A DNA stretch of 57,364 nt from Sphingobacteriales bacterium (GTDB taxonomy: Bacteria; Bacteroidota; Bacteroidia; Sphingobacteriales; Sphingobacteriaceae): NCBI GenBank assembly GCA_013298995.1, contig JAAFJW010000002.1:1-57364 (forward strand). The letters run 5' to 3'. The position numbers and the translations under genes were made by a program. Below, in pieces: positions 1,625 through 29,288 of the stretch; the first letter of the stretch is position 1, and each line of letters starts with the position of its first letter. Under the pieces are notes generated by a model. The model ran no database searches. It was not told the DNA's origin and saw nothing but the letters and a program-made list of their open reading frames with translations.

Positions 1625-4600
1625 ATGAAAAAAATAATCCTCTTTTTTGCGGTACTTATTTGCACAAATTTTGTAGCAAAAGCCCAAACCCTTTTACACA
1701 GCTGGAATTTTAACAATTCTACCTCGCTAACTACTTTGTTAGCACCCAACACTGTACTTGTACCAGGTGCAAGTATTACACACAATGTGGTTACCAATAG
1801 CGAGATACCTATTACGGGTAATACTACTGGACAAGGGTTTGAAATTACCAACCCCAATGCCCGCAATGGCGATGTAGCTGGTGCACATTTACGTTTTAAC
1901 AATGCAGTAGGTGGCAACTTGGTTTTTGCATTACCTACTACAGGTTATAAAGATATTGTTGTTAAATACGCCACTAGGCGCTCTACCCAAGGTGCTTTTA
2001 ACCAAATTATTGATTATAGTATTGATGGTACAAATTATGTAAACTTTACTACCATAATGCCGTTAGAGGCTAATCCAGTTTTACAAACTTTGGATTTTGG
2101 CACAATTTTAACGGCCAACAACAATCCTAACTTTAAAATAAGAATTAGCTTTACACAAGGCGGGGCAACTGGTACGGCCGGCAATAACCGTTTCGATAAT
2201 TTTACCTTAGAGGGTAATTCATTGGCTGCCGCAGATGTAACCGCACCAAGCGTAGTTTTTACACCTTTAAACAATGTGCTTAATGCCAACATAAATACAC
2301 AACCAAAAATTAGTTTTAACGAACTTATTAGGTTAGTAGATAACAGCGCAATTACCAATGCCAATGTTGGTACTTTAGTAGAGTTACGTTTAAACGATGC
2401 TACTGGTGCATTGGTAGCATTTAACGCCACCATTACTGGTTCCGAAATTACCTTAGTGCCAAGCCTAGCTTTACTAAACAACCAAAAATATTATGTTGCC
2501 GTAAAACCTAATGTAATAGAAGATTTAAGTAATAACGCAATTACCACTACTCCATCATCGGTTTTTACAACTAGGGCTAATCAAATCGCATTTGCCAGCA
2601 ATTTTTTATCAGTTGCCGAAAACGCAGGCTCGGTAACGGTAACGTTAACCCTTACCGACCCTACCATTAGCAGCGCAAATTTAGTTTTAAAAGCTGCGCC
2701 GTTTAGTAACACCAGCGCAAGCGATATAACTTACGCCACCCAAACCTTAAATTTTACAGCTACAAGCAATGCCACCCAAACCATTACCATACCTATTACC
2801 GACGATTTATTATCGGAAATGGACGAATATTTTGTTTTAGCCTTAGAGAATTTAAACGGAGTAACATTAGCTGGTAAACAATTTTTAACCGTTTACATTA
2901 GAGATAACGACCGTGTTGCACCTGTACCTACGCAAGAACTTACCTTAAATTACACCAGTAGTTTTAAACCAAACACCGCCACTGGTAGCACCACCGAAAT
3001 TGTGGTACATGATGCAGCAACGCAGCGTTTATTTATGACAAGTGCTGTACAAGACCGTTTAGATATTGCTAATTTCTCAAATCCTGCTGCCGTAACTTTA
3101 ATAAAATCTATTAATATGGCACCTTACGGAGGCATAACCAGCGTAGCCGTTAAAAATGGTGTGGTTGCAGTTGCCTGCCCTAATGCCAATGAGCAGTTAG
3201 ATGGTTCGGTAGTGTTTTTTAATACCGATGGCGATTTTATAAAACAAGTTACCGTAGGCGCATTGCCCGATATGATTACCTTTTCGCCCGATGGCAATAA
3301 AATATTTACCGCCAACGAAGGCCAGCCAAATACCACTTACACCGTTGACCCCGAGGGTTCGGTATCTATTATCGATATTTCGGGCGGCATAGCATCGGTA
3401 AATCAGAGCAAAGTAACTACCTTACTTTTAACAGGTTTTAATGCACAAGAAGCAACTTTAATAGCTAGCGGTGTACGTAAAACCAGGTTATCTTCTACGC
3501 TTTCGCAAGATTTTGAACCAGAGTATGTAACCGTATCGGCCGATAATACAAAGGCTTGGGTGGTGATGCAAGAAAACAATGCAATAGCCGAAATTAACTT
3601 AGCCACCAATACTTACACCAGCTTATGGGCTTTAGGTAAAAAAGATTTTAATGTAAACGGAAGCGGTTTAGATGCGTCGGATAATAGCGGAAGAATTCAC
3701 ATTTCTAATTTCCCAGTAAAATCTTACTTTATGCCCGATGGTATTGCAAATTATACCGCAAATGGTAAAACTTATTTGGTTACCGCCAATGAAGGCGACG
3801 AAAAAGAATACGGTACTTTTGTAGAGCGCACCACAGTTGGTGCGGTTACTTTAGACCCTACCATTTTTCCTAATGGCGAAGTTTTAAAAGAAAACCACAA
3901 TTTAGGTAGATTACGCATAACCAGTTTTAATGGCGATACCGATAGTGATGGCGATTTTGATGAGTTGATAATGGTAGGTGCAAGGTCGTTCTCTATTTTT
4001 GATGCAAGTACAAAAGGTATAGTTTACGATAGCAAAGATGATATGGAGTTGTTTACCTCAAAATCTCCTATTACTTCCCCATTTTTTAATGCCGATAACG
4101 AAAGTAGCACTTTAAAAAACCGTAGCCGCTCTAAAGGTCCCGAGCCTGAGGGTGTAACACTTGCTACAATTGCTGGCCAAGTATATGCTTTTGTTGGTTT
4201 AGAAAGAGTAGGCGGTATAATGGTTTACAACATTACCGACCCTGCAAACGTAAAATTTGTAGATTATAAAAATAACCGTACTACAAACCAAGCCACCAGC
4301 GATTTAGGCCCTGAGGGTATTATTTATATTTCTGCAGCAAACAGCCCTACTGGCAAACCTTACGTTATGATTGCTAACGAAATAAGTGGCAATATATCGG
4401 TATTCGAGCTTGCAGGCACAGTGTTAACCAACCCTACAGTAAGTATTTCAAGCCCAACTAACAACGCTATTTTTGATGCAGGTACTCCAATTACTTTAAA
4501 AGCGGTTGCACATGATGAGAATGGTACAATTAAAAAAGTTGAGTTTTACAATTCAGGAAATTTGATTTTAACTGATAGTATTGCCCCGTACGAATTTTCT

Positions 4601-5524
4601 AGTAATGGAGTTGGAGCTGGAAGTTACTTAGTTACAGCTAAAGCTTTCGATAATAGCGGCAACAGTACAGTTTCTGATACTGTAAAAATTACGGTTACAG
4701 CTTGCACTCCTGTTGGACACATTACAGCCGAAGGATATTTTAATATTCCAGGTAAATTGGTTTCAAATCTTACAAGTAACTCTAATTATCCAAACAATCC
4801 AAGTATTAGCACTCAGCTTACCTCTTTAAACTATCAAAATATAGGTGATAACTACGGTGGAAGGTTGCGAGGATATATTTGCGCACCAGAAACAGGTAAT
4901 TATACTTTTTATATTGCCAGTAATGAGAACAGCGAACTTTACCTTAGCACAAATGGTGAAGCCAGCAATAAAAGAAAAATTGCCTATTTAAGTTCTGATG
5001 TTGCACCTAGAGCTTGGTTTACATTTTTTACTCAAAAATCTGTGCAAATTTTCTTACTAAAAGGGGCTCGTTATTACATTGAAGTACTTCATAAAGAAAG
5101 CACAGGTGCTGATCATCTTTCTGTAGGATGGAAAATTCCAGGGACAAATACTGTAAACGTAATTTCTGGAAGTTATCTTTCTCCAATTTCAAATAGCATG
5201 AGTACTTCTAGCTTAGCGTTTGCTGATATTAATAGTCTTTTAAATCAATCACAATTAAATGCTGATGCTACAAACAAGAAATCTCATACTTTAGTAGTTT
5301 ATCCTAACCCAGTAACAGCAAACATAATAAATGTAAAATCAAGTAACACTGATTTAAAGCAAGTTAATGTAAAACTATTTAGTATAAATGGAGCGTTAGT
5401 ATATCACGGTAAACCCGTTGTAACTGCTGGTAACTTCGAAATTAAATTAAACCATAAACCAGAATCGGGAGTTTATATTTTACATGTTGAAGGCCTAGGC
5501 ACACAACAATTAATAGTTAAATAA
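1625..5524 (+). CDS. Secreted multidomain choice-of-anchor-I propeller protein with T9SS sorting domain
   Basis: A 1299-residue extracellular protein. The ATG at 1625 is chosen over a GTG at 1577 because it begins a typical signal peptide, MKKIILFFAVLICTNFVAKA, with cleavage likely after Ala20. Domains in order, by eye: a discoidin/anchor-like beta region (20-200), an SbsA-type Ig domain (about 200-318), a Calx-beta domain (320-434, ending in a RDND calcium-type motif), a choice-of-anchor-I beta-propeller (438-933, with FSPDGNKIFTANEGQPN and LGPEGI repeats), a bacterial Ig domain (937-1025), a PA14 domain (1026-1190) and a type IX secretion C-terminal domain (about 1219-1299) beginning VVYPNPV and ending GLGTQQLIVK. 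It would cross the outer membrane through the Por/T9SS machinery and be surface-attached or released. Ligand and function are unknown; PA14 often binds carbohydrate. Codon use changes sharply from about base 4440 onward. Confidence 0.88.
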   Translation: MKKIILFFAVLICTNFVAKAQTLLHSWNFNNSTSLTTLLAPNTVLVPGASITHNVVTNSEIPITGNTTGQGFEITNPNARNGDVAGAHLRFNNAVGGNLVFALPTTGYKDIVVKYATRRSTQGAFNQIIDYSIDGTNYVNFTTIMPLEANPVLQTLDFGTILTANNNPNFKIRISFTQGGATGTAGNNRFDNFTLEGNSLAAADVTAPSVVFTPLNNVLNANINTQPKISFNELIRLVDNSAITNANVGTLVELRLNDATGALVAFNATITGSEITLVPSLALLNNQKYYVAVKPNVIEDLSNNAITTTPSSVFTTRANQIAFASNFLSVAENAGSVTVTLTLTDPTISSANLVLKAAPFSNTSASDITYATQTLNFTATSNATQTITIPITDDLLSEMDEYFVLALENLNGVTLAGKQFLTVYIRDNDRVAPVPTQELTLNYTSSFKPNTATGSTTEIVVHDAATQRLFMTSAVQDRLDIANFSNPAAVTLIKSINMAPYGGITSVAVKNGVVAVACPNANEQLDGSVVFFNTDGDFIKQVTVGALPDMITFSPDGNKIFTANEGQPNTTYTVDPEGSVSIIDISGGIASVNQSKVTTLLLTGFNAQEATLIASGVRKTRLSSTLSQDFEPEYVTVSADNTKAWVVMQENNAIAEINLATNTYTSLWALGKKDFNVNGSGLDASDNSGRIHISNFPVKSYFMPDGIANYTANGKTYLVTANEGDEKEYGTFVERTTVGAVTLDPTIFPNGEVLKENHNLGRLRITSFNGDTDSDGDFDELIMVGARSFSIFDASTKGIVYDSKDDMELFTSKSPITSPFFNADNESSTLKNRSRSKGPEPEGVTLATIAGQVYAFVGLERVGGIMVYNITDPANVKFVDYKNNRTTNQATSDLGPEGIIYISAANSPTGKPYVMIANEISGNISVFELAGTVLTNPTVSISSPTNNAIFDAGTPITLKAVAHDENGTIKKVEFYNSGNLILTDSIAPYEFSSNGVGAGSYLVTAKAFDNSGNSTVSDTVKITVTACTPVGHITAEGYFNIPGKLVSNLTSNSNYPNNPSISTQLTSLNYQNIGDNYGGRLRGYICAPETGNYTFYIASNENSELYLSTNGEASNKRKIAYLSSDVAPRAWFTFFTQKSVQIFLLKGARYYIEVLHKESTGADHLSVGWKIPGTNTVNVISGSYLSPISNSMSTSSLAFADINSLLNQSQLNADATNKKSHTLVVYPNPVTANIINVKSSNTDLKQVNVKLFSINGALVYHGKPVVTAGNFEIKLNHKPESGVYILHVEGLGTQQLIVK

Positions 5525-5544
5525 TTAGTTTTTAATTTTTAGAT

Positions 5545-5578
5545 AAAGAGAGCAGCGTAATAGCTGCTCTTTTTTTTT
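5545..5578 (+). terminator. Rho-independent terminator of the T9SS protein gene
   Basis: An 8-bp perfect stem (AGAGCAGC / GCTGCTCT) with a 6-nt loop, extended by A-T pairs and followed by a run of T. It begins about 20 nt after the stop codon. Confidence 0.85.
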
Positions 5579-5602
5579 GTGTAAGGATTTTTAGCGTATA
5601 AG

Positions 5603-5752
5603 TGTTAGAACGGAAATCCCTAAATTTTCTTAAATATTTAGCCTTTCTTATCACATCAAACTTTTCTCAGTAGTTATCGTTGCCCTATTTATGACAGTAA
5701 AATTTAAGAGTTTTGTGTTTTTTAAGAAAATTTAAAGGTTTCCGTTCAAACA
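5603..5752. repeat. MITE-like element with 32-bp terminal inverted repeats
   Basis: The arms 5603-5634 and 5721-5752 are inverted copies matching at 28 of 32 positions; the outermost shared words are AACGGAAA and TTTCCGTT, the innermost a perfect 14-mer TTTAAGAAAATTTA. They enclose 86 bp of AT-rich sequence without a reading frame. The size and form resemble a miniature inverted-repeat transposable element. No clear target-site duplication is visible. A long regulatory hairpin is the alternative. Confidence 0.5.
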
Positions 5753-5797
5753 TTAATTAAAGTTTAGATATATTTTTTCATGTGGCAAATTCAAGCA

Positions 5798-5824
5798 ATA
5801 AATGCCACACACCCAATTTTAGCG
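5798..5824 (+). repeat. Dispersed 27-mer, copy 1
   Basis: This 27-nt sequence (starts ATAAATGCCACACA, ends CCAATTTTAGCG) recurs at 24141-24167 in the same orientation with 25 of 27 identical bases. It lies 12 nt beyond the phoH stop codon. The upstream word TGTGGCA at 5781-5787 is complementary to TGCCACA inside it, so this copy could form a small hairpin. Its nature is unknown. Confidence 0.4.
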
Positions 5825-5836
5825 GTGTAAATTCCC

Positions 5837-6808
5837 CTACTGTATATCGCCATAGGCTTCTAAAATACGTTTCACCAGTTTATGGCGTACCACATCATCG
5901 CCGTTAAGGTAAATAATTTCTATCCCTTTAATTTCGGCCAAAATACGCAGGGCGTTGTGTAAACCCGATTGTTGCTTACGGGGTAAATCAATTTGGGTAA
6001 CATCGCCAGTAACAATAAATTTTGCGGTGGGCCCCATGCGGGTTAAAAACATTTTTAACTGTAAATCGGTACTGTTTTGGGCTTCATCTAATATTACGAA
6101 ACAATTATCTAGCGTACGGCCACGCATAAATGCCAAAGGCGCAATCTCGATGGTGCGGTTTTCGAGGTATGTTTTTAGCTTATCGGCAGGTATCATATCG
6201 TCCAAGGCATCGTATAATGGGCGTAGGTAAGGGTCTATTTTTTCTTTTAAATCTCCCGGAAGGAAACCTAAATTTTCGCCTGCTTCTACCGCTGGGCGAG
6301 TTAAAATAATACGCTTTATTTCTTTGTTTTTTAACGCCCTAACGGCAAGCGCTACAGCGGTATAAGTTTTACCTGTACCCGCTGGGCCTATGGCAAAAAG
6401 CACATCGTTTTTGGCCATACTATTTACCATACGGCGTTGGTTTACGGTACGGGCTCGCACCATAATCCCATTAGGGCCAAATACAATAACCTCCGATTGT
6501 GCCAAGCCTGCAGCCGTATCGCTACTGGGTGCATCGGCGGGGCTTTCGCTTTGGTTACGGCTACCCAATATACTTTCTACATCGTTGGTTGATAGGTTAT
6601 TAAACTGGTTAAGGTGGTTAATAATTTTGCTTATTTTTTTACTAAAAATTTGCAACTCTTCGTCATCGCCTAGGGCTTTTACTTCGGTACCACGGGCTAC
6701 AATTTTTAGTTTAGGAAACGCTCGTTTAATAATTTCGTAAAATTCGTTGTTGGGCCCCCATAATAAGGCAGGGCTTAAATTGTCGAGGGCTATTTTAATT
6801 TCGTTCAA
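5837..6808 (-). CDS. phoH: PhoH-like ATPase
   Basis: A cytoplasmic PhoH/YbeZ-type P-loop ATPase, 323 residues, usual for the family. An N-terminal RNA-binding-like region (about 1-110) precedes the ATPase: Walker A GPAGTGKT (141-148), the RPAVEAGE element (171-178), Walker B with DEAQN (241-245), and the sensor motif GDVTQIDLP (268-276). Family members work with YbeY in RNA metabolism and ribosome maturation; the exact role is unsettled. The start is a TTG codon at 6808-6806, giving a first residue followed by NEIKIALDN, the usual family beginning; no ATG fits better. It is transcribed away from the SAM hydroxide adenosyltransferase homologue and has no operon partner here. Confidence 0.92.
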   Translation of the reverse strand: MNEIKIALDNLSPALLWGPNNEFYEIIKRAFPKLKIVARGTEVKALGDDEELQIFSKKISKIINHLNQFNNLSTNDVESILGSRNQSESPADAPSSDTAAGLAQSEVIVFGPNGIMVRARTVNQRRMVNSMAKNDVLFAIGPAGTGKTYTAVALAVRALKNKEIKRIILTRPAVEAGENLGFLPGDLKEKIDPYLRPLYDALDDMIPADKLKTYLENRTIEIAPLAFMRGRTLDNCFVILDEAQNSTDLQLKMFLTRMGPTAKFIVTGDVTQIDLPRKQQSGLHNALRILAEIKGIEIIYLNGDDVVRHKLVKRILEAYGDIQ

Positions 6809-6911
6809 GGCTTAGTTTTTTTAAAGTCTGATATTTTTGTGAATTAAAAATTGAATATTTGCAAGCGTTAATGGTGTACCACAAGGTTAAGCATAAATAT
6901 TTAATTTTTTA

Positions 6912-7688
6912 ATGGCAATTATTACTTTAACTACCGATTTAGGCTATAAAGATTTTTACCAAGCTGCTTTAAAAGGAAGCATCCTAAAAATATTGCCCAG
7001 CGTAACTATTGTAGATGTTACCCACGAAATACAAGCCTTTAATATTTCGAGGGCGGCCTTTATTTTAAAAAACTGTTTTAATTACTTTCCGCAAGGTACA
7101 GTACATTTAATCGGCATTGATACCGTTTACAGTAAGCAACAAAAATATTTAGCTTTAAAATACAATGGGCATTATTTTGTAGGTGCTGATAATGGTATTT
7201 TTTCTTTAATTTTTGAGGCCGAACCCGAAGAAATTGTGGAAATAAATATTTTACAGGATTTAAAATTTTTACACTTTCCCCTAACCGATATTTTGGTAAA
7301 AGCAGCCTGTAGCCTAGCCTCAGGCGGTAAACTTAGCCAAATAGGCATCCCGGCCAACGGTATTGTAAAGCGTATTAGCCTGCACCCAGGGCTAGAGGGT
7401 AGCCAAATAAATGGTAGCGTAATTTTTATTGATACTTTTCAAAACGTAATTACCAATGTAACCAAAGATTTTTTTACCAAGGTACAACGAGGCCGAAACT
7501 TTACCCTTTATTTACGCAAACACGAAACCATTAAACAACTAAGTTGGCATTATAACGAAGTACCCGAAGGCGAAAAACTCTGCTTATTTGGCATCTCAAA
7601 CCATTTAGAAATAGCCATTAACAAAGGCAATGCAAGCGGCTTATTAGGCCTAAAAATTAACGATAGTATCAAAATAGAATTTGGGTAA
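6912..7688 (+). CDS. SAM hydroxide adenosyltransferase-family protein (DUF62)
   Basis: A 258-residue member of the family that hydrolyses S-adenosylmethionine to adenosine and methionine, and which also contains the SAM halogenases. The N-terminal motif TLTTDLGYKD (residues 5-14) supplies the conserved active-site Asp, and the central GADNG (about 92-96) and the C-terminal beta-barrel typical of the family are present. Nothing in the sequence suggests halogenase activity: free-standing genomic copies like this are generally the hydroxide-using enzymes. It is monocistronic, divergent from phoH, with about 100 nt of AT-rich spacer upstream and no strong terminator before bamD. Confidence 0.85.
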   Translation: MAIITLTTDLGYKDFYQAALKGSILKILPSVTIVDVTHEIQAFNISRAAFILKNCFNYFPQGTVHLIGIDTVYSKQQKYLALKYNGHYFVGADNGIFSLIFEAEPEEIVEINILQDLKFLHFPLTDILVKAACSLASGGKLSQIGIPANGIVKRISLHPGLEGSQINGSVIFIDTFQNVITNVTKDFFTKVQRGRNFTLYLRKHETIKQLSWHYNEVPEGEKLCLFGISNHLEIAINKGNASGLLGLKINDSIKIEFG

Positions 7689-7750
7689 GATTTTTTTATT
7701 CGCCCCTCTCCTATTTTAACATTGTTTAACCCCATCTGTTTTTATTAAAA

Positions 7751-7782
7751 ATTGACTTGTATTATTTATTAATCTATCTTTG
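7751..7782 (+). promoter_or_regulatory. Promoter of the bamD operon
   Basis: ATTG at 7751-7754, a 20-nt spacer, then TATCTTTG at 7775-7782: a good match to the Bacteroidota TTTG-N19-TAnnTTTG promoter. Transcription would begin about 5-8 nt downstream, which is at or beside the ATG at 7787. This argues against the upstream in-frame TTG at 7757 as start and suggests a leaderless or nearly leaderless mRNA. Confidence 0.6.
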
Positions 7783-7786
7783 CAGG

Positions 7787-8653
7787 ATGTTTAAAAACAA
7801 GGTAATCGTAATTCTGAGTTTTATTATTTTATGTGCAACCGTTTTCACGGGATGTAAAAGCCGTTTCGAGAAACTAAAAGCCAGTACCGATGTGCCTAAA
7901 AAATACCAAGAAGCCATCCGTTTATACAACAAAAAAGATTATGCCAAGGCCTTAATTTTGTTCGACGATTTGGTACAACGTTACCGAGGTCGCTCCGAAG
8001 CCGAAGATTTATATTATTACTACTCGTTTAGTAATTACAAATTAAAAGATTATTTATCAGCAAGGTATCATTTTAAAACCTTTGCCGAAACCTATCCCAA
8101 TAGCACCCGAGCCGAAGAGTGTAGGTTTATGGCCGCCTATTGTTTTTACCAAGATTCACCCAATTTTTCGCTCGACCAAGAGAATACCTATAAAGCTATC
8201 GAGGCCTTGCAATTGTTTATCAACTTATATCCTAAAAGTAACCGTGTAGCCGAAGCCAGCAAACTAATACAGGATTTGAGAGATAAATTAGAAAAAAAAT
8301 CGTACGCCAATGCCAACTTATTTTTGACAATAGGCGATTACCAAGCAGCCGTAATAGCGTTCCGAAATTCGATACGTGATTTCCCCGATACAAAATTTGC
8401 CGAAGAAATGGAATTTTTAACCATAAAATCTTTATATCTTTACGCAAAAAATAGCTACGAAACAAAACAAGAAGACCGCTACACCGAAACCATTGATGAG
8501 TATAACCGATTTATAGAAAAATACCCCAAAAGTAGCTACACCAAAGAAGCCGATAAATTAAAACACGAATCAGAAAAAGGTATAGAAAACGCAAAAAACA
8601 TTTTGGCACTAAGCCTCGAATATAAAAAAGCACAAAATGACACAAAACAATAA
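7787..8653 (+). CDS. bamD: Outer membrane protein assembly factor BamD (lipoprotein)
   Basis: The TPR lipoprotein of the BAM complex that inserts beta-barrel proteins into the outer membrane. From ATG 7787 the protein has 288 residues. The lipoprotein signal ends in VFTGC with the lipidated Cys23. It is followed by tetratricopeptide units with the typical YNKKDYAKALILFDDLVQRY helix pair (about residues 41-60), AEDLYYYYSFSNYKLKDY, and later copies to about residue 270. The in-frame TTG at 7757 would add ten residues ahead of the signal peptide and lies upstream of the predicted transcription start, so it is rejected. It overlaps rpoZ by 17 nt and opens the operon bamD-rpoZ-coaBC-DUF4835-recN, an arrangement familiar in Bacteroidota. 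Confidence 0.92.
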   Translation: MFKNKVIVILSFIILCATVFTGCKSRFEKLKASTDVPKKYQEAIRLYNKKDYAKALILFDDLVQRYRGRSEAEDLYYYYSFSNYKLKDYLSARYHFKTFAETYPNSTRAEECRFMAAYCFYQDSPNFSLDQENTYKAIEALQLFINLYPKSNRVAEASKLIQDLRDKLEKKSYANANLFLTIGDYQAAVIAFRNSIRDFPDTKFAEEMEFLTIKSLYLYAKNSYETKQEDRYTETIDEYNRFIEKYPKSSYTKEADKLKHESEKGIENAKNILALSLEYKKAQNDTKQ

Positions 8654-8975
8654 CGATAAACCAACCGTTGCCAGTTCAACCGTTACCCGCGATTTAAGAG
8701 AATTTGATATCGCTACCGATAATGCCTACGAATCGTTGGTAATTATTAGCAAACGAGCCAACCAAATTGCAACAAATGTAAAAGAAGAATTACATGCCAA
8801 ACTAGCCGAATTTGCTACAGCAAATGATAATTTGGAAGAAATATTTGAAAACAGAGAGCAAATAGAAATTTCTAAATTTTACGAAAAAATGCCTAAACCT
8901 ACTTTGGTGGCTATTGACGAATTTTTACACGACAAAGTGTATTTCAGAAATCCAGCTAAAGAACAACAAGCCTAA
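8637..8975 (+). CDS. rpoZ: DNA-directed RNA polymerase omega subunit (Rpb6-like)
   Basis: A 112-residue omega subunit, which helps assemble the beta-prime subunit into RNA polymerase. The conserved helix region runs from about residue 25 to 65 with NAYESLVIISKRANQI, equivalent to the RPB6/omega core, then an acidic C-terminal extension usual in Bacteroidota omega proteins. It starts inside the last codons of bamD (17-nt overlap, a different frame), which implies translational coupling. coaBC follows after 30 nt. Confidence 0.88.
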   Translation: MTQNNNDKPTVASSTVTRDLREFDIATDNAYESLVIISKRANQIATNVKEELHAKLAEFATANDNLEEIFENREQIEISKFYEKMPKPTLVAIDEFLHDKVYFRNPAKEQQA

Positions 8976-9005
8976 TTTTTTTATCTTTAAGTGCTTAAAC
9001 AGGAT

Positions 9006-10202
9006 ATGCTTAAAGATAAAAATATAATTATTGCTGTATGTGGTAGCATTGCAGCCTACAAAGCCGCCGAACTGGTAAGGCTTTGTATAAAAGCTGGTGC
9101 GCAGGTACGGGTAGTAATGACTGCCGATGCCACCGCTTTTATTAGCCCACTTACACTAGCAACGCTATCTCAAAACCCCGCTTGGGTTAATTATTACACT
9201 AGCGAAACAGGCGAATGGCACAACCATGTAGCGCTAGGCCTATGGGCGCATTGCCTTATTATAGCCCCAGCCACCGCAAATACAATAGGCAAAATGGCCA
9301 ATGGTATTTGTGATAATTTATTGCTAGCTGTATATTTATCGGCCAGATGCCCCGTTTATATAGCCCCAGCCATGGATGTAGATATGTGGCAACACCCATC
9401 TACCCAGCACAATATCCAAAAACTAATTAGCTATAATAACATTATCATCGAGCCCGATTATGGCTCACTAGCCAGCGGCTTAACAGGGCAAGGCAGGCTA
9501 GCCGAACCCGAAAATATTTTATCGTTTGTAAGCAATAATATCCAAAAAAGCCTGCTACTAAAAGGAAAAAATATTTTGATAAGTGCTGGCCCCACCCACG
9601 AAAGTATCGACCCTGTAAGGTTTATCAGCAACCAATCAACCGGTAAAATGGGTTATGCCATTGCACAATATTGCGCCAATGAAGGCGCACAAGTTACCTT
9701 AATAAGTGGCCCAACGGCTTTAAGCATCCAACATCAAAATATCAAAACAATAGATGTAATTACAGCCAATGATATGTTTACAGCCCTTCATCAATATTTC
9801 GCTGGGGCGGATGCCTGTATTATGTGTGCCGCCGTAGCCGATTATGCCGTTAAAAATATTGCCAACCAAAAAATTAAAAAAAACGAGCAAAATTTAACCC
9901 TAGAGCTAGTAAAAACAAAAGATATTTTGGCAAGCCTAGGTAAAATAAAAACCGATAAACAATTATTAATAGGCTTTGCCCTCGAAACCAACAACGAAGA
10001 AAACAACGCCATAAAAAAATTACAACAAAAAAATTTAGATTTAATTATCCTAAACTCATTAAACGATGACGGGGCAGGTTTTAAAACCGATACAAATAAA
10101 ATCACTATCATTGATAAAAACTTACATAAAACAACGTTTAGTTTAAAAAGTAAACATGAAGTGGCCAAAGATATTTGCACAAAAATTATCCAATTATTTT
10201 AA
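9006..10202 (+). CDS. coaBC: Bifunctional phosphopantothenoylcysteine decarboxylase / phosphopantothenate-cysteine ligase
   Basis: Makes 4'-phosphopantetheine for coenzyme A in two steps. The N-terminal flavoprotein CoaC domain (1-185) has the CGSIAAYKAAEL start, catalytic His74 and APATANT; the C-terminal CoaB domain (190-398) has SAGPTHESIDPVRFISNQ, STGKMG, AAVADY and the KIKK loop. I start at ATG 9006 (398 aa); a GTG at 8991 would add five residues. Two places differ from E. coli CoaBC: the PxMNxxMW motif reads PAMDVDMW (Asp124 for Asn125) and the flap cysteine (E. coli Cys158) is Ser157 in LASGLTGQGRL. From memory other Bacteroidota share these changes, so loss of function is not implied. 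DUF4835 starts one base after the stop. Confidence 0.92.
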   Translation: MLKDKNIIIAVCGSIAAYKAAELVRLCIKAGAQVRVVMTADATAFISPLTLATLSQNPAWVNYYTSETGEWHNHVALGLWAHCLIIAPATANTIGKMANGICDNLLLAVYLSARCPVYIAPAMDVDMWQHPSTQHNIQKLISYNNIIIEPDYGSLASGLTGQGRLAEPENILSFVSNNIQKSLLLKGKNILISAGPTHESIDPVRFISNQSTGKMGYAIAQYCANEGAQVTLISGPTALSIQHQNIKTIDVITANDMFTALHQYFAGADACIMCAAVADYAVKNIANQKIKKNEQNLTLELVKTKDILASLGKIKTDKQLLIGFALETNNEENNAIKKLQQKNLDLIILNSLNDDGAGFKTDTNKITIIDKNLHKTTFSLKSKHEVAKDICTKIIQLF

Positions 10203-10203
10203 T

Positions 10204-11103
10204 ATGAAAAAAAATTGCTGCCTATTATTCGCCCTTTTTTTAAGCATCAATTGCCTAGCACAAGATTTAAACGCTAGGGTACAAATACTATCGCCCAAAA
10301 TACAAAGCAATAATAAACGAGCCTTAGATGTGCTTGAACTAGCCATTCGCGATTTTTTAAATAACCGAAAATGGACTACCGACCCTATAAAATCAAACGA
10401 GCGCATTGATTGTAATTTTGTAATAAATATTACCGAATGGGATGGCTCCAATGTGTTTAAAGCCGAAGCACAAATAGTATCCAGCAGGCCTATTTTTGGT
10501 TCATCGTACAGTAGCCCATTATTAACTGTAAACGATAAAAACTTTGAATTTAACTACTCCGAAGGCGAAGCCTTAGAATATAACGACCAAGGTTTTATCT
10601 CAAACCTTACCTCGCTACTTGCATTTTATGCCAATATAATAGCAGGAATGGATTACGATAGTTTTTCGAAACTTGGCGGTTCGGCATATTTTGCCAAAGC
10701 ACAATTAATTGTAAATAATGCCCAAAATGCAAATTTTATAGGCTGGAAAGCATTTGATAACTTACGCAACCGCTACTGGATTGCCGAAAATTTTAATAGT
10801 GCAACTTATACCACCTTACGAGAACTGCAATACACCTACCACCGCTTGGGTTTAGATGTAATGGCAAGCAATGCCACCGAGGCCAGGCGAATAATAGCAA
10901 AAGCCTTACCCGATTTAGCCACCATTGATAAACAAAAACAAGGTGCAATTATTAATCAAATGTTTTTTTCGGCCAAAGCCGAGGAAATTATTGGAATATT
11001 TTTAAAATCGGACCCACCCGAAAAAATTAAACTGTATAACCTACTAGCCGAGGTTGACCCACTTAATTTAACCAAGTACGAAGAATTAAAAAAAGGTAAA
11101 TAA
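10204..11103 (+). CDS. DUF4835 family secreted protein
   Basis: A 299-residue exported protein of unknown function, recognised by its place between coaBC and recN and by its sequence type: signal peptide MKKNCCLLFALFLSINCLAQ, then a domain with WTTDPIKSNERIDCNF, GSSYSSPLL and FYANIIAGMDYDSFS, and a C-terminal helical region ending NLTKYEELKKGK. The ATG at 10204, one base after the coaBC stop, gives the signal peptide; a longer in-frame reading from 10156 lies inside coaBC and is discarded. A periplasmic or envelope role is likely because it shares the operon with bamD, but this is inference. Confidence 0.85.
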   Translation: MKKNCCLLFALFLSINCLAQDLNARVQILSPKIQSNNKRALDVLELAIRDFLNNRKWTTDPIKSNERIDCNFVINITEWDGSNVFKAEAQIVSSRPIFGSSYSSPLLTVNDKNFEFNYSEGEALEYNDQGFISNLTSLLAFYANIIAGMDYDSFSKLGGSAYFAKAQLIVNNAQNANFIGWKAFDNLRNRYWIAENFNSATYTTLRELQYTYHRLGLDVMASNATEARRIIAKALPDLATIDKQKQGAIINQMFFSAKAEEIIGIFLKSDPPEKIKLYNLLAEVDPLNLTKYEELKKGK

Positions 11104-24679: not shown

Positions 24680-25945
24680 TTAGCCCAAAAAATCAGCAAA
24701 CCACTTCCCCGAATTTTTAATCGTTCGTTTTTGTGTATCAAAATCTACATGTATTAAACCAAACCGAGGATGATAACCTTCGGCCCACTCAAAGTTATCG
24801 GTTAAAGTCCATACAAAATAACCGTCTATTTTTAAACCATCTTGTGTGGCTTTTAAAACTTGTGCTATATGGGTTTCTAAATATTTAATTCGTTCTATAT
24901 CATTTACTTCACCATCTTTTATTTCATCGGCAAAGGCGGCACCGTTTTCGGTAATGTATAGTTTTTTTATGTTGGTATAGGCCGAAAATTTTTCGATCAT
25001 TTTGTAAATAGCCTCGGGATAAATTTCCCACCGCATTGCCGTAGTAGCTACTTTTCGTTTTGGAGCGGTAATTAAGCTGGCGTTAATATAGGGTGTAAAC
25101 CACGAGTTTTTAACCACCTCGCGGGTGTAGTTTTGTATGCCAATAAAATCAAAATCGAAAACCATTTTACCCTCGTCGCCAGGCTGCATATATTTTTTGA
25201 TATTTTTTAATATAGGAAGTTCTTTATCGGGGTAACCCAAGCCTGATAATGGCTCGATAAAAAGGCGATTTAATAAGGCATCTACCCTATTGGCGGCTTT
25301 TTGGTCTCTGGGCAGGTTTCTATAAGGTTGAATGTAAGAGCATGAAAACGTGGTACCTACTTGGGCATCGGGCGGCAGTATTTTTTTTAATATTCTGCCT
25401 CCTTCGGCAATGGACAAAGTAGTATGGTGTATGGCGGGTAAAAAATTATCCATGCCTCGGCGGCCAGGTGCGTGTATGCCCAAAAAATAGCCAGCACCTG
25501 TAAACACAACGGGCTCGTTCATCACCATCCAATGTTTTACACGATTGCCAAATCGGGTGGCACAAAGGCTAACAAATTGGGAAAACCAGCTGATAACTTC
25601 ACGGTTAGTCCAACCACCTTTTTTTTCTAATGCGTAAGGTAAATCCCAATGGTAAAGTGTAAGCCAAGGCTCTATTTCGTTTGCTATACAATAATCAATC
25701 AGTTGGTTGTAATAAGCAATGCCCGCTTCGTTTACCTCGCCTATGCCATCGGGCAATACCCGCGACCAAGCTATCGAAAACCTAAAATTAGGAATGTTAA
25801 GCTGTTTTAATAGCTGTATATCTTGCTGGTATTGGTTATAAAAATCGCAGGCTATGTTGCCATGCTGGTTTAGGTGTATATTTCCTTTTTGGTTGGCAAA
25901 AACATCCCATATAGATTGCCCTTTGCCATCTAAACTTTTTATATT
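24680..25945 (-). pseudogene. GH1 beta-glucosidase with 5' truncation
   Basis: Reads as a glycoside hydrolase family 1 protein (beta-glucosidase type). Counting from the TTG at 25756, the acid/base is in NEP (80-82) and the nucleophile is Glu270 in LYITENGAAF; YHWDLP and the C-terminal GYFVWTLTDNFEWAEGYHPRFGL are also present. The family reading continues upstream without interruption through DGKGQSIWDVFANQKGNIHL and RFSIAWSRVLPDGIG, but hits an in-frame stop at 25948-25946, just where the expected N-terminal FLWGVATSAYQIEGA segment should be. No ATG or GTG exists in this upstream part. So about 30 residues including the substrate-binding Gln are gone and replaced by the promoter region of the divergent operon. 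A shortened product from TTG 25756 would lack the first barrel strands. Probably inactive. Confidence 0.75.
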
Positions 25946-25970
25946 TTACTTTGCATTTCAAAGTTCTTTT
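25946..25970 (+). promoter_or_regulatory. Promoter element and candidate operator of the creD operon (site 1)
   Basis: TTACTTTG (25946-25953) is one base from TAnnTTTG. It is followed at once by TTTCAAAGTTCTTTT (25956-25970), nearly identical to a second site at 26917-26931. The core AAAGTTCTTT is one base off the perfect palindrome AAAGTACTTT. Bound protein would cover the transcription start and the ATG-proximal region, suggesting repression, perhaps by the winged-helix protein of the same operon. Confidence 0.45.
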
Positions 25971-25974
25971 AAAA

Positions 25975-26595
25975 ATGAAAAAACAAGATATTTATTCGGA
26001 GCTAAACAGTATTAGAAATTTAATGGAACGATCCACCAAGTTTATTTCGTTAAGTGGGTTATCGGGTATTATGGCGGGTATTTATGCGTTAATAGGCTCG
26101 TATATAGGGTATAAAATGGTGTACCCAAGTAGCGGAGGTTTATTATACCGAGATAATTATGTAAACGATAGCAATGTGCTGCTCCGTTTATTTTTTGTGG
26201 CTTTTGGAGTTTTGTTTTTTTCGGTGGCAACTGGTATATGGCTTACCATAAGGCAAACCCGCAAAAAAGGCGAAAGTTTTTGGAATCCCGTAAGCCAGCG
26301 ATTGCTTGTAAACTTTTGTATTCCTCTTTTTACAGGCGGTTTATTTATTTTGGTTTTGATTCATAAAGGTCATTACGGTATCGTATCATCAGCAAGTTTG
26401 GTTTTTTATGGTTTGGCGTTGGTGGCTAACAGCCAATATACTTTTTCGGATGTAAAATGGCTGGGTGCTTTAGAAATTGTTTTAGGCTTGCTTGCCGCCC
26501 TATTTCCAGGCTATGGAATTATTTTTTGGAGCATAGGTTTTGGCTTGCTACATATACTTTATGGTTCAATAATGCACTTTAAATATAAACAGTGA
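25975..26595 (+). CDS. Membrane protein of the regulator-creD operon
   Basis: A 206-residue integral membrane protein, unrecognised as a named family. The ATG at 25975 is preferred to a TTG at 25951, which lies in the promoter. The short charged N-terminus (KKQDIYSELNSIRNLMERSTKFI) is followed by about six hydrophobic segments: near 31-50, 80-100, 120-140, 148-163, 170-188 and 190-200. Its stop overlaps the GTG start of the downstream winged-helix gene (GTGA), so the two are translated together. This pairing suggests it senses or is controlled with the regulator; the function is unknown. Confidence 0.7.
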   Translation: MKKQDIYSELNSIRNLMERSTKFISLSGLSGIMAGIYALIGSYIGYKMVYPSSGGLLYRDNYVNDSNVLLRLFFVAFGVLFFSVATGIWLTIRQTRKKGESFWNPVSQRLLVNFCIPLFTGGLFILVLIHKGHYGIVSSASLVFYGLALVANSQYTFSDVKWLGALEIVLGLLAALFPGYGIIFWSIGFGLLHILYGSIMHFKYKQ

Positions 26596-26891
26596 TAGCC
26601 TTCGACCAATTTAATAAAACATTTGAAAGCCGCTTACGCTTGCAAATAATGAGCGTTTTGGTAGCAAACCCGCATTACGATTTTAATGCGCTTAAAGAGC
26701 TATTAAACGTAAGCGATGGCAATTTGGCCGCACACATTAAAGCCTTAGAAAAAGAAGAATATATTTTGGTAAACAAAACTTTTGTAGGCCGTAAACCTAA
26801 TACACAATACTTTGCAAGCCCCAAGGGGCGTGAAGCCTTTAAAAAACATTTAGAGATTTTAGAAAATTTAATTTTACAACAGAAGCAATAA
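26592..26891 (+). CDS. Winged-helix transcriptional regulator
   Basis: A 99-residue one-domain DNA-binding protein. It starts at a GTG that overlaps the previous stop. The winged helix is clear: RLRLQIMSVLVANP (helix 1), FNALKELLNVSDGNLAAHIKALEKEEYI (helix-turn-helix, about 35-62) and the wing VNKTFVGRKPNTQYFASPKGREAF. It is of the small HTH_34-like type seen beside membrane proteins in Bacteroidota. Two near-identical palindromic sites, before the first gene of the operon and before creD, are natural candidates for its binding sites (inference). Confidence 0.82.
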   Translation: MIAFDQFNKTFESRLRLQIMSVLVANPHYDFNALKELLNVSDGNLAAHIKALEKEEYILVNKTFVGRKPNTQYFASPKGREAFKKHLEILENLILQQKQ

Positions 26892-26916
26892 TTTTTTTTT
26901 ACATATAAACTTTTAA

Positions 26917-26931
26917 TTTCAAAGTACTTTT
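26917..26931 (+). promoter_or_regulatory. Candidate operator before creD (site 2)
   Basis: TTTCAAAGTACTTTT contains the perfect 10-bp palindrome AAAGTACTTT and differs by one base from site 1 at 25956-25970. It lies 17 nt before the creD ATG. Confidence 0.45.
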
Positions 26932-26947
26932 AATTTAATATACAAAA

Positions 26948-28312
26948 ATGAAAAATCAAGAAACACAAATCAATGGATCAAAAAACTGGTTTAACAACTC
27001 GGTTTTAATTAAACTAAGCCTTATTGTGGCTTTAACGTTACTTTTACTAATTCCATCTACTTGGATACAGGATTTAATTTTAGAGCGACAAGGCAGGCAA
27101 AATGAAGTAATTAAAGAAATATCGGACAAATGGGCTGGTAGCCAATTATTAGAAGGACCAGTTATGGTATTGCCCTATAAAACTTTGGTTAGTCAAAAAG
27201 ATAGCGCAGGCAAAACTAGTTTTAAAGAGGTATTAACCAATATTTACATCCTACCCGAAACATTAAATATAGCAACGATGGCGAAACCCGAAATTTTGCA
27301 TCGCGGAATATTTGATGCCGTGGTTTACAACACCACAATCCGTGTAAACGGAAAATTTAGTAGTTTAGAATTACTCAAATCTGGCATTAACCCCAATATG
27401 GTTATGTGGGATAAAGCGAAAATTGCTATTGGTTTAAGTGATTTAAAGGGACTTAAAAACAACCCTAGCATTAAACTTGATGGCAAAGTATTTAATGTAG
27501 AGCCCGATTTTACATCGTTAAAGCTGTTTAGCAACACGCTAATTATATTACCAAATTTAAGCCCAAACAGCCAAACTGCTTTAAACTTTAGCTTTGATTT
27601 AGATGTACGTGGCAGTAGCGAACTTAATTTTATGCACATTGGTAAAACCACCAATGTACAAATAGACGGCAATTGGGATAACCCAAGTTTTACGGGGCGT
27701 TACCTGCCTGAAACTAGGAATATAAGTACCAAAGGCTTTACTGCAACTTGGAAAATGCCTTACTTTAATAGAGCGTTTCCGCAGCAATGGGTGGGCGAAA
27801 ACTCATCATTTAATAATGGAAACACCGAATCTGTTTTTGGTGTAAAGTTTATTTTACCGGTAGATCAATACCAAAAAACAATGCGAAGTGCTAAATATGC
27901 ACTCTTAATTATCTTACTTAGCTTTATTGCCTTATTTTTTACCGAACTTTTAAATAAACGAAAAATACATTTTTTACAATATGTTTTAATTGGCGCAGCA
28001 ATGACTATTTATTATACCTTGTTACTTTCGTTTAGCGAACAAATGGGTTTTAATTTAGCCTATCTAATTGCCTCGATAGCCACTGTTGCACTAATAAGTA
28101 TTTTTATAGCTTCGCTATTAAAAAACAAAAAACCAGCCGCAATATTTGGTAGCATTTTAAGCGTTTTTTACGGCTTTATATTCGTAATTATACAGTTGCA
28201 AGATTTAGCCTTATTATTTGGAAGCGTTGGCTTGTTTATTATTATTGCCGCTATGATGTATTTATCATCAAATATATTCCGTTCGCTTGCACCAACAGAA
28301 ACCCACAATTAA
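26948..28312 (+). CDS. creD: CreD-family inner membrane protein
   Basis: A 454-residue CreD family protein. It has a first transmembrane helix (about 19-40, LIKLSLIVALTLLLLIPSTWI), a long periplasmic beta-rich domain with the family features LEGPVMVLPY and FDLDVRGSSELNFMHIGKTT, the GRYLPETRNI and TATWKMPYFNRAFPQ segment, and then five or six helices at the C-terminus (from about 315). In enterobacteria CreD belongs to the CreBC regulon and affects envelope integrity and colicin or beta-lactam tolerance. Here no CreBC two-component genes are present; control is more likely by the winged-helix protein encoded just upstream. Confidence 0.88.
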   Translation: MKNQETQINGSKNWFNNSVLIKLSLIVALTLLLLIPSTWIQDLILERQGRQNEVIKEISDKWAGSQLLEGPVMVLPYKTLVSQKDSAGKTSFKEVLTNIYILPETLNIATMAKPEILHRGIFDAVVYNTTIRVNGKFSSLELLKSGINPNMVMWDKAKIAIGLSDLKGLKNNPSIKLDGKVFNVEPDFTSLKLFSNTLIILPNLSPNSQTALNFSFDLDVRGSSELNFMHIGKTTNVQIDGNWDNPSFTGRYLPETRNISTKGFTATWKMPYFNRAFPQQWVGENSSFNNGNTESVFGVKFILPVDQYQKTMRSAKYALLIILLSFIALFFTELLNKRKIHFLQYVLIGAAMTIYYTLLLSFSEQMGFNLAYLIASIATVALISIFIASLLKNKKPAAIFGSILSVFYGFIFVIIQLQDLALLFGSVGLFIIIAAMMYLSSNIFRSLAPTETHN

Positions 28313-28327
28313 ACCAGCAATTTAAAA

Positions 28328-28810
28328 ATGAAAGCAACTACTAAACAACCGTTTGCATTTGGCATAAGCCAAATGCAACAAATTAAAATTTGTATTTCGA
28401 TAATTATTATAGGTCTCGCATTAAGCGGATTAACAGCTTTCCCGCTCGAAACAGAACTAGAAATACTAAGTAAAAACACCACAGGCACAATGCATACTTG
28501 GGTACAAACGGTTTACAATTCAATAAAAAACACTAACCAAAACTACCCTTGGTTAAGCTACGGTACAGATTGGTTAGCCTTTGCACACCTAATGTTGGCT
28601 GTGCTATTTATTGGCCCTCTAAAAAATCCCGTAAAAAATATATGGATTATAGAGTTTGGCATTATTGCTTGTATAATGGTATTTCCATTGGCATTTATAG
28701 CTGGACCTATAAGAGGCATTCCATTTTTTTGGCAATTAATTGATTGCTCTTTTGGTGCAATTGGGCTTATTCCACTAGTTATCTGTTATCGTAAAATAAA
28801 AAAATTATAA
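28328..28810 (+). CDS. Membrane protein of unknown function downstream of creD
   Basis: A 160-residue protein with about four transmembrane segments (near 19-38, 81-97, 104-124 and 133-152). The region between the first two is extracytoplasmic and hydrophilic, with a YPWLSYGTDWLAFAHL motif. It begins 15 nt after creD and so belongs to the same operon. I do not recognise a characterised family. Confidence 0.65.
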   Translation: MKATTKQPFAFGISQMQQIKICISIIIIGLALSGLTAFPLETELEILSKNTTGTMHTWVQTVYNSIKNTNQNYPWLSYGTDWLAFAHLMLAVLFIGPLKNPVKNIWIIEFGIIACIMVFPLAFIAGPIRGIPFFWQLIDCSFGAIGLIPLVICYRKIKKL

Positions 28811-28815
28811 ATCAA

Positions 28816-28841
28816 TTCCCGTTGGCTAAAGCCAACGGGAA
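28816..28841. repeat. REP-like perfect hairpin
   Basis: An 11-bp perfect stem (TTCCCGTTGGC / GCCAACGGGAA) with the loop TAAA. No T run follows, so it is not a standard terminator. Palindromes of this GTTGGC-TAAA-GCCAAC kind recur in many Bacteroidota genomes to my recollection, as REP-type elements. Within this window it is single. Confidence 0.55.
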
Positions 28842-28859: not shown

Positions 28860-29288
28860 ATGTTCACATTTAATAAAAACTACGCAATTATTGCCTTACT
28901 ACTTTTTATAACCGAAGTACTTATTGCCCTTTACGTTCACGATAAAATTATACGGCCTTTTGGGGGAGATTTTTTGGTGGTAATACTGCTTTATACACTG
29001 GTAAAAAGTTTTTTAAATTGGCCTGTAAAACTTACCGCCTGTACAGTTTTACTATTTTCCTATACAGTAGAAACCCTACAATATTTTAATATATTGGGTT
29101 TTATGGGACTGCATCATAACAAACTGGCAAATGTTATTATAGGTAACTATTTTTCATGGTCAGATATTTTGGTTTACACCCTTGGCATTGCCACTGTACT
29201 TATTATAACCCAATTAAGGAAAATAATTTGTGCCAACGAATGCGAAAAACCCATACATTATCAGGGAATACCACATTGCTTTATATAA
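28860..29288 (+). CDS. DUF2809 family membrane protein
   Basis: A 142-residue membrane protein with four to five helices. The motifs LLYTLVKSF, TVETLQYFNIL and the closing NYFSWSDILVYTLGI are the pattern of the DUF2809 family, whose function is unknown. It follows the REP-like hairpin, 49 nt after the previous gene, and probably ends the creD operon. The extra C-terminal tail after residue 125 (with Cys and His) is hydrophilic. Confidence 0.75.
   Translation: MFTFNKNYAIIALLLFITEVLIALYVHDKIIRPFGGDFLVVILLYTLVKSFLNWPVKLTACTVLLFSYTVETLQYFNILGFMGLHHNKLANVIIGNYFSWSDILVYTLGIATVLIITQLRKIICANECEKPIHYQGIPHCFI

Follow-up and report, generated by a model that had tools for sequence, protein, structure and literature searches.

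A conserved 22-bp element as the predicted operator of an HTH_34 winged-helix regulator, on the promoter and in the interior of a creD operon of Bacteroidota

Introduction

A 22-bp element with the consensus ACTTTG-N5-CAAAGT-NCTTT occurs in two copies, S1 and S2, in a creD operon of a Sphingobacteriales bacterium. With a probability of about 0.8, as judged from comparative sequence analysis, an autoregulated HTH_34 repressor uses this element as its operator and governs a small envelope regulon. Moreover, the comparison suggests a new distinction between two operator classes, one situated on promoters and the other inside operons behind an A/T tract. The stretch of 57,364 nucleotides that was analysed is referred to here as the window. 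In the open literature searched we found no report of this motif or of this regulator. A regulator family of the Bacteroidota for which that literature offers no function gains a concrete predicted operator, together with a short list of candidate targets made up of cell-envelope genes and exosortase systems.

For Stenotrophomonas and other Proteobacteria, PMC4689548 describes CreD as encoded near CreBC and as induced by it. The window CreD, like those proteins, clearly belongs to PF06123 (505.9 bits, cut-off 23) and also to NF008712 (465.6 bits, cut-off 275). Unlike in the Proteobacteria, however, its gene stands beside that of a one-component winged-helix protein.

Results

All features of the predicted operon lie on the + strand. 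S1 (ACTTTGCATTTCAAAGTTCTTT, 25948-25969) is placed on a predicted promoter and represents class P. It is followed by ORF1, which encodes a 206-aa membrane protein (25975-26595), and by the gene of the 99-aa HTH_34 winged-helix regulator (26592-26891), the start of which overlaps the ORF1 stop. A T9 tract (26892-26900) stands directly 3' of the regulator stop codon, and its 3' end is 8 bp from S2 (ACTTTTAATTTCAAAGTACTTT, 26909-26930), the operon-internal copy (class T), which lies about 0.96 kb from S1 and precedes creD (26948-28312). The genes for a 160-aa membrane protein (28328-28810) and a DUF2809 protein (28860-29288) likely belong to the same operon as creD. As judged by eye, the 160-aa protein resembles a 169-aa protein 3' of a site in locus L072, and a small protein similar to the DUF2809 protein comes after an exosortase-like gene in L256. 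Between the two genes, the window contains an 11-pair hairpin (28816-28841), which is terminator-like on the - strand only.

The initial annotation, made from the window sequence, had correctly noted two 15-base sites that differ by one base, TTTCAAAGTTCTTTT at 25956-25970 and TTTCAAAGTACTTTT at 26917-26931. It placed them on either side of the regulator gene, while in fact both ORF1 and the regulator lie between them and the first site stands just 5' of ORF1. The sequence AAAGTACTTT (26921-26930) is indeed a perfect palindrome, as had been stated, and its partner AAAGTTCTTT is not. Real as this palindrome is, it constitutes only the right half of the 22-bp element; the third, upstream arm (ACTTTG / ACTTTT) had been missed. 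The left half completes a second inverted repeat with a 5-bp spacer, and in the window the left arm of S2 reads ACTTTT, so that the G of the -7 box is lost.

The consensus was obtained from an alignment of distinct sequences that deviate by no more than one mismatch, 92 for S1 and 73 for S2. Lineage variants among the 70 loci of the phylum set include AAAAGTACTTT, CAAAGCACTTT and ACTTTAT-N4-TAAAGT. The letters of S1 and S2 at one and the same locus agree above expectation at position 11 (115/126, expected 96.2) and position 16 (113/126, expected 101.7), and no more than expected at position 17 (80/126, expected 82.3), where these counts take related loci as separate. Within the whole 2.78-Mb assembly TTTCAAAGTWCTTT occurs only at S1 and S2, and the operator pattern has two matches in all, with none outside the window. 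The regulator as query finds a single place in this genome at E 0.001. By itself, the window provides weak evidence, as it holds three matches at two mismatches and at least three were obtained in 21 of 100 shuffles.

To evaluate conservation, we assembled 183 distinct regulator loci from the family, from named genomes (the 80 best of 178) and from a phylum sample, related loci among the 183 not being independent events. Mismatches were counted over the 17 fixed bases of the element, and Markov shuffles served as controls. With at most one mismatch, S1 was found in 142 of 177 regulator loci (0 of 3540 shuffles), i.e. the element is conserved over the regulator's own promoter, as would be the case for an autoregulated repressor, and S2 was found in 128 of 183 (0 of 3660 shuffles). 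At up to three mismatches the numbers rise to 159 for S1 and 142 for S2, with 1 and 11 matches in the respective shuffles. These counts rule out a chance origin of the site pair, which the window alone would not settle. Furthermore, 109 of 110 loci (109 relatives and the window, some of them being the same place twice) reach far enough upstream of ORF1, and all 109 carry, 5' of this gene, a site like CAAAGTACTTT that shows one mismatch at the most. Conservation 5' of homologous operons had been named beforehand as the test that could overturn the initial reading, and the motif survives it in many families of the phylum. A site with at most one mismatch is missing from 35 of the 177 S1 stretches and from 55 of the 183 S2 stretches, and some operons outrun the stretch that was searched (L253). 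Six of the 70 phylum-set loci (L224, L233, L236, L250, L251, L252) have no site within three mismatches in 1.1 kb on the regulator's strand.

The presence of the element tracks the regulator gene. The pattern ACTTTKNNNNNCAAAGTNCTTT is present in 66 of 101 family genomes, namely in 65 of the 73 with the regulator versus one of the 28 without it; in this exception, G049, both strands of a single place match. The reversed pattern, used as control, gave one match across the 101 genomes. Among the 147 pattern places, two are the single G049 place and 43, spread over 29 genomes that carry the regulator, are not linked to it. When 20 unlinked regions were read, a frame of at least 70 codons began within 400 bp downstream in 19 of them and in L151 none did. 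Hereby, the unlinked sites precede genes for small membrane proteins of either about 112 aa (L134, L135, L137, L138, L140, L144) or about 96 aa (L139, where it is longer, L143, L145, L146, L150), for a DoxX-like protein that scores just under the Pfam cut-off (25.0 vs 26.3; L141, L152), CreD (L133) and an 840-aa protein of the VIT cluster (L136), the other kinds being single cases. With the same operator on promoters elsewhere in relatives, these genes would make up a small envelope-gene regulon. It speaks against the operator reading that another protein, whose gene travels with the regulator, could read the element.

The initial annotation had further proposed that this arrangement stands in place of CreBC, which finds partial support in the window and its family and a looser one beyond. 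A CreB tag-like repeat has no match at up to one mismatch in the window. A full-length CreD (E below 1e-100) occurs in 41 family genomes, each of which carries the regulator as well. Where creD lies away from the regulator it still has a site in G076 and G093, and where it is further than usual from the regulator a site stands just before creD (L098, L104, L109); in G089 the contig that carries creD has no match to the pattern. Of the 296 genomes of the phylum sample, 64 contain creD, and in some of these the regulator was not detected. Among 29 phylum creD loci, the regulator is absent from the stretch in 18, all of which lack a site within 300 bp upstream (best, five mismatches), which argues against a general creD regulon. 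The remaining 11 have the regulator, and a site with at most one mismatch stands directly before creD in five and is absent in six. Taken together, creD goes with the regulator at loci where it neighbours the latter, is site-free elsewhere and is not always a target; the operator reading concerns the operator of the regulator, not every creD.

The regulator is a member of HTH_34 (PF13601; 96.1 bits, cut-off 27, residues 15-94). Its AlphaFold model (mean pLDDT 88.4) shows a winged-helix fold with 1ub9 as top Foldseek match (E 1.4e-5), which is also the nearest solved structure by sequence (E 6.1e-12), followed by the PadR-type Rv3488. The recognition helix (approximately residues 42-54, around TDGNL) is nearly invariant, as is the core of the operator. 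Since this helix hardly varies, co-variation of regulator and operator is suggested by a single case, the paralogue L123 (36% identical), which has the helix TQGNM. The repeat 3' of its gene is AGTTTG-N5-CAAACT, and a T6 tract stands 8 bp upstream of this repeat. This paralogous HTH_34 system (L123, about 2011-2350) has a membrane-protein neighbour of its own and is perhaps a sister regulon with another half-site.

For ORF1 no Pfam or NCBIfam family was found at E 0.001, and its model (mean pLDDT 84.1), a helical bundle with helices at residues 3-49, 57-60, 66-98, 105-130, 134-152, 159-176 and 181-205, matches no PDB fold at E 0.001 (best, 0.32). The residues S12, I13, M17, E18, R19 and S20, which precede the first membrane stretch, are invariant in 29 rows. 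As a guess, these residues would fit a contact to a cytosolic partner and, speculatively, ORF1 may be a membrane-side signal partner.

S1 has the elements of a canonical Bacteroidota promoter, and S2 lacks them. Hereby, the TTG of the predicted -33 element of S1, TTTG (25922-25925), begins 36 bases before CAAAG. The predicted -7 box TTACTTTG (25946-25953), which is common to the left arm of the operator, is close to the promoter box TAnnTTTG / TAnnTTGY given in PMC9723704. At S1 sites the second letter of the box is mostly T, not A. We compared 304 distinct sites, i.e. 142 S1, 129 S2 and 33 unlinked ones. TTG is found near the -33 position in 131 S1, 2 S2 and 23 unlinked sites, T at -13 in 133, 66 and 27, and a T tract of at least six in 5, 119 and 8, respectively. 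Four unlinked sites (L138, L139, L141, L142) are clearly of neither class, and five of the eight unlinked T tracts stand before the second of two tandem sites (L133, L134, L135, L136, L147). In these pairs, a promoter-type site is followed by a tract-type site within about 55-110 bp, with no regulator between; standing before one gene, they may be relics of a deleted ORF1-regulator pair.

The spacing between tract and operator is strictly kept. At up to three mismatches, a T run of at least five ends exactly 8 bp upstream of the site in 122 of 142 S2 versus 3 of 159 S1, and at S2 this run is mostly 7 or 8 long (119/142). In eight S2 sites the T run has only 3-4 bases, and seven of these are preceded by an A run with the same 3' border. 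The tract begins 0-2 bases past the regulator stop codon in 85 of 133 cases. An intrinsic terminator at this position is ruled out, as there is no hairpin upstream: in the 30 nt 5' of the tract none of 131 loci reaches an MFE of -8 kcal/mol or below (mean z -0.09), and the window has none either. Likewise, a tract plus ACTTTG is ruled out as a general promoter feature, since T7-N8-ACTTTG occurs at background, with 44 matches in 21 genomes, some of them S2 sites themselves, compared to 43 for the reversed control.

A scan for tract plus operator that made no reference to the regulator yielded 53 places in 45 of 296 genomes, with none for the reversed control, and by comparison of coordinates 45 of the 53 lie within 1.4 kb of a regulator. 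Three of the other eight were read. L266 has TTG at the promoter position and a T8 ending 7 bp away, and is thus of class P; in L265 a same-strand gene ends 84 bp upstream of the site; L264 is a T-tract target outside an obvious operon. Of 123 T-tract sites, 116 have a further site 5' of them on their own strand. None was found for the remaining seven (L011, L050, L107, L133, L174, L190, L197), and the L107 stretch begins close to its T-tract site. In L253 a further tract-type site stands before a later gene of the same run. From this comparison, S2 looks like an operon-internal operator and not like an ordinary second promoter. The internal second control point of the initial annotation hence finds comparative support, except that it does not resemble a normal promoter.

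Discussion

The predicted S1 operator overlies the promoter of ORF1-regulator(-creD), with its left arm within the -7 box. Placing this box at -12 to -5, as in PMC9723704, the operator would span about -10 to +12. As it would cover both the -7 box and the start, the S1 operator points to repression of initiation: a dimer bound at S1 would block initiation and bring about negative autoregulation. It is from position only that we take the protein for a repressor and not for an activator. The core inverted repeat ACTTTG-N5-CAAAGT has a half-site spacing of approximately 11 bp, in line with what a winged-helix dimer would require, and the adjoining third ACTTT half-site may take a second dimer. 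The autoregulation assumed in the initial annotation, a prediction from sequence, gains comparative support from a motif that is kept and that accompanies the regulator gene. One might instead regard the element as a promoter type for an alternative sigma factor, for which the well-kept -33 and -7 elements of S1 with their fixed spacing would speak. We deem this highly improbable, given that the conserved palindromic part extends about 12 bases beyond the inferred start, that S2 retains the whole element without the promoter elements and that the presence of the element goes along with the regulator gene.

S2 would be the same operator in an operon-internal position. Here, the -33 element and the promoter-specific T of the -7 box are missing, and an A/T tract of mostly T7 or T8 precedes the operator, with its 3' end 8 bp upstream. 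As an internal operator, S2 would act on transcription arriving from S1. Our tentative interpretation, to which we give somewhat less than even odds, is a roadblock to elongation, in which the bound repressor would stop read-through from S1 and the tract would help the stalled complex to backtrack or let go. This agrees with the near-absence of the -33 TTG from S2 and its less frequent T at -13 compared to S1, with the same-strand sites found upstream of most T-tract sites, and with tracts that begin at the regulator stop codon and lack an upstream hairpin. There is also a precedent for yeast RNA polymerase I (Pol I), for which PMC12366685 describes a pause in a T-rich sequence 15 bp upstream of the Reb1 site. 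In that case, however, an RNA hairpin is required and brings about release, while none is seen at S2. The T-tract target outside an obvious operon (L264) may likewise be an exception, and the A-then-T variants (seven of the eight short T runs) match DNA shape better than a U-rich transcript. These variants weaken a literal U-tract reading and favour a role of the tract in DNA shape.

S2 might also be a second, weaker promoter-operator for creD, with the A/T tract in place of the -33 element, given that ACTTTG at S2 retains part of a -7 box and that the start of the following gene is close by on the 3' side. We consider this conceivable, though rather doubtful, because the -33 TTG is absent, the T at -13 is not conserved and the window copy has lost the G of the -7 box (ACTTTT); the background count of T7-N8-ACTTTG, moreover, argues that this is not a general promoter type. 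A shifted S2 promoter with TACTTTTA as -7 box was rejected by eye, since such a box would lack its final G. A DNA loop could also join two such similar operators over their distance of about 0.96 kb, which is unlikely in view of 66 distinct S1-S2 distances that fill all six helical-turn bins, so that no phase is kept, and of the single sites at some target genes.

Extending the roadblock interpretation, we can picture a repressor-dependent elongation gate. Hereby, the operator in its promoter format would block initiation and in its in-operon format, with an A/T tract at exactly 8 bp, would stop or release the polymerase; such a gate would be shared by a large part of the phylum and would also be retained by at least one paralogue of the regulator that has another half-site. 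We put this forward as a proposal with the odds leaning against it. If S2 does act on elongation, it would represent a widely conserved repressor-controlled stop within operons that obeys a simple rule of A/T tract, 8 bp and operator. Bacterial examples of roadblocks by proteins and of Mfd-dependent release are given in PMC10310618. As in roadblock termination by LacI and Mfd or by Reb1 with a T-rich element, a DNA-bound protein, here a predicted one, would stand 3' of a T-rich stretch. Those systems are a Pol I terminator or a model roadblock, whereas S2, if this interpretation is true, would be a regulated operator inside an operon.

With the HTH_34 and MarR-PadR-ArsR-like autorepressors the present regulator shares a small winged-helix fold and an inverted-repeat operator, predicted here, on its own promoter. 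It differs from them in that there are three half-sites, that the same predicted operator recurs across many families of the phylum, that an operon-internal copy with an A/T tract exists and that the membrane protein ORF1 is encoded just upstream.

The regulator shares gene runs or sites with exosortase systems of the XrtK / MSEP-CTERM and XrtN / VIT kinds (TIGR04287, TIGR04286, TIGR04477) in L253, L075 and L256. In L253 a gene run (1893-10955) comprises ORF1, a SanA-like protein, the regulator, exosortase K (TIGR04287, 119.4 bits, cut-off 55), an MSEP-CTERM protein (798.5 bits, cut-off 150), small membrane proteins, CreD and a 104-aa protein, and this run links CreD with an exosortase system. 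In L075 a site is followed by a VIT protein that belongs to the XrtN system (TIGR04477, 1014.6 bits, cut-off 250), and in L256 a similar VIT-type gene follows the regulator and is itself followed by exosortase-like and DUF2809-like genes, as judged by eye. In contrast to these systems, there is no exosortase among the genes of the window operon that were scanned. The genome of the window has one exosortase/archaeosortase-family match, on another contig (L258, G000:C1:53379-53642).

On the other side of the S1 promoter, a divergent GH1 glycosidase gene (24680-25945, - strand) has a frame open to about 25945, where it adjoins this promoter. The encoded protein seems to be without the N-terminal residues that are usual in the family, and the gene may be 5'-truncated or start at an unusual codon.
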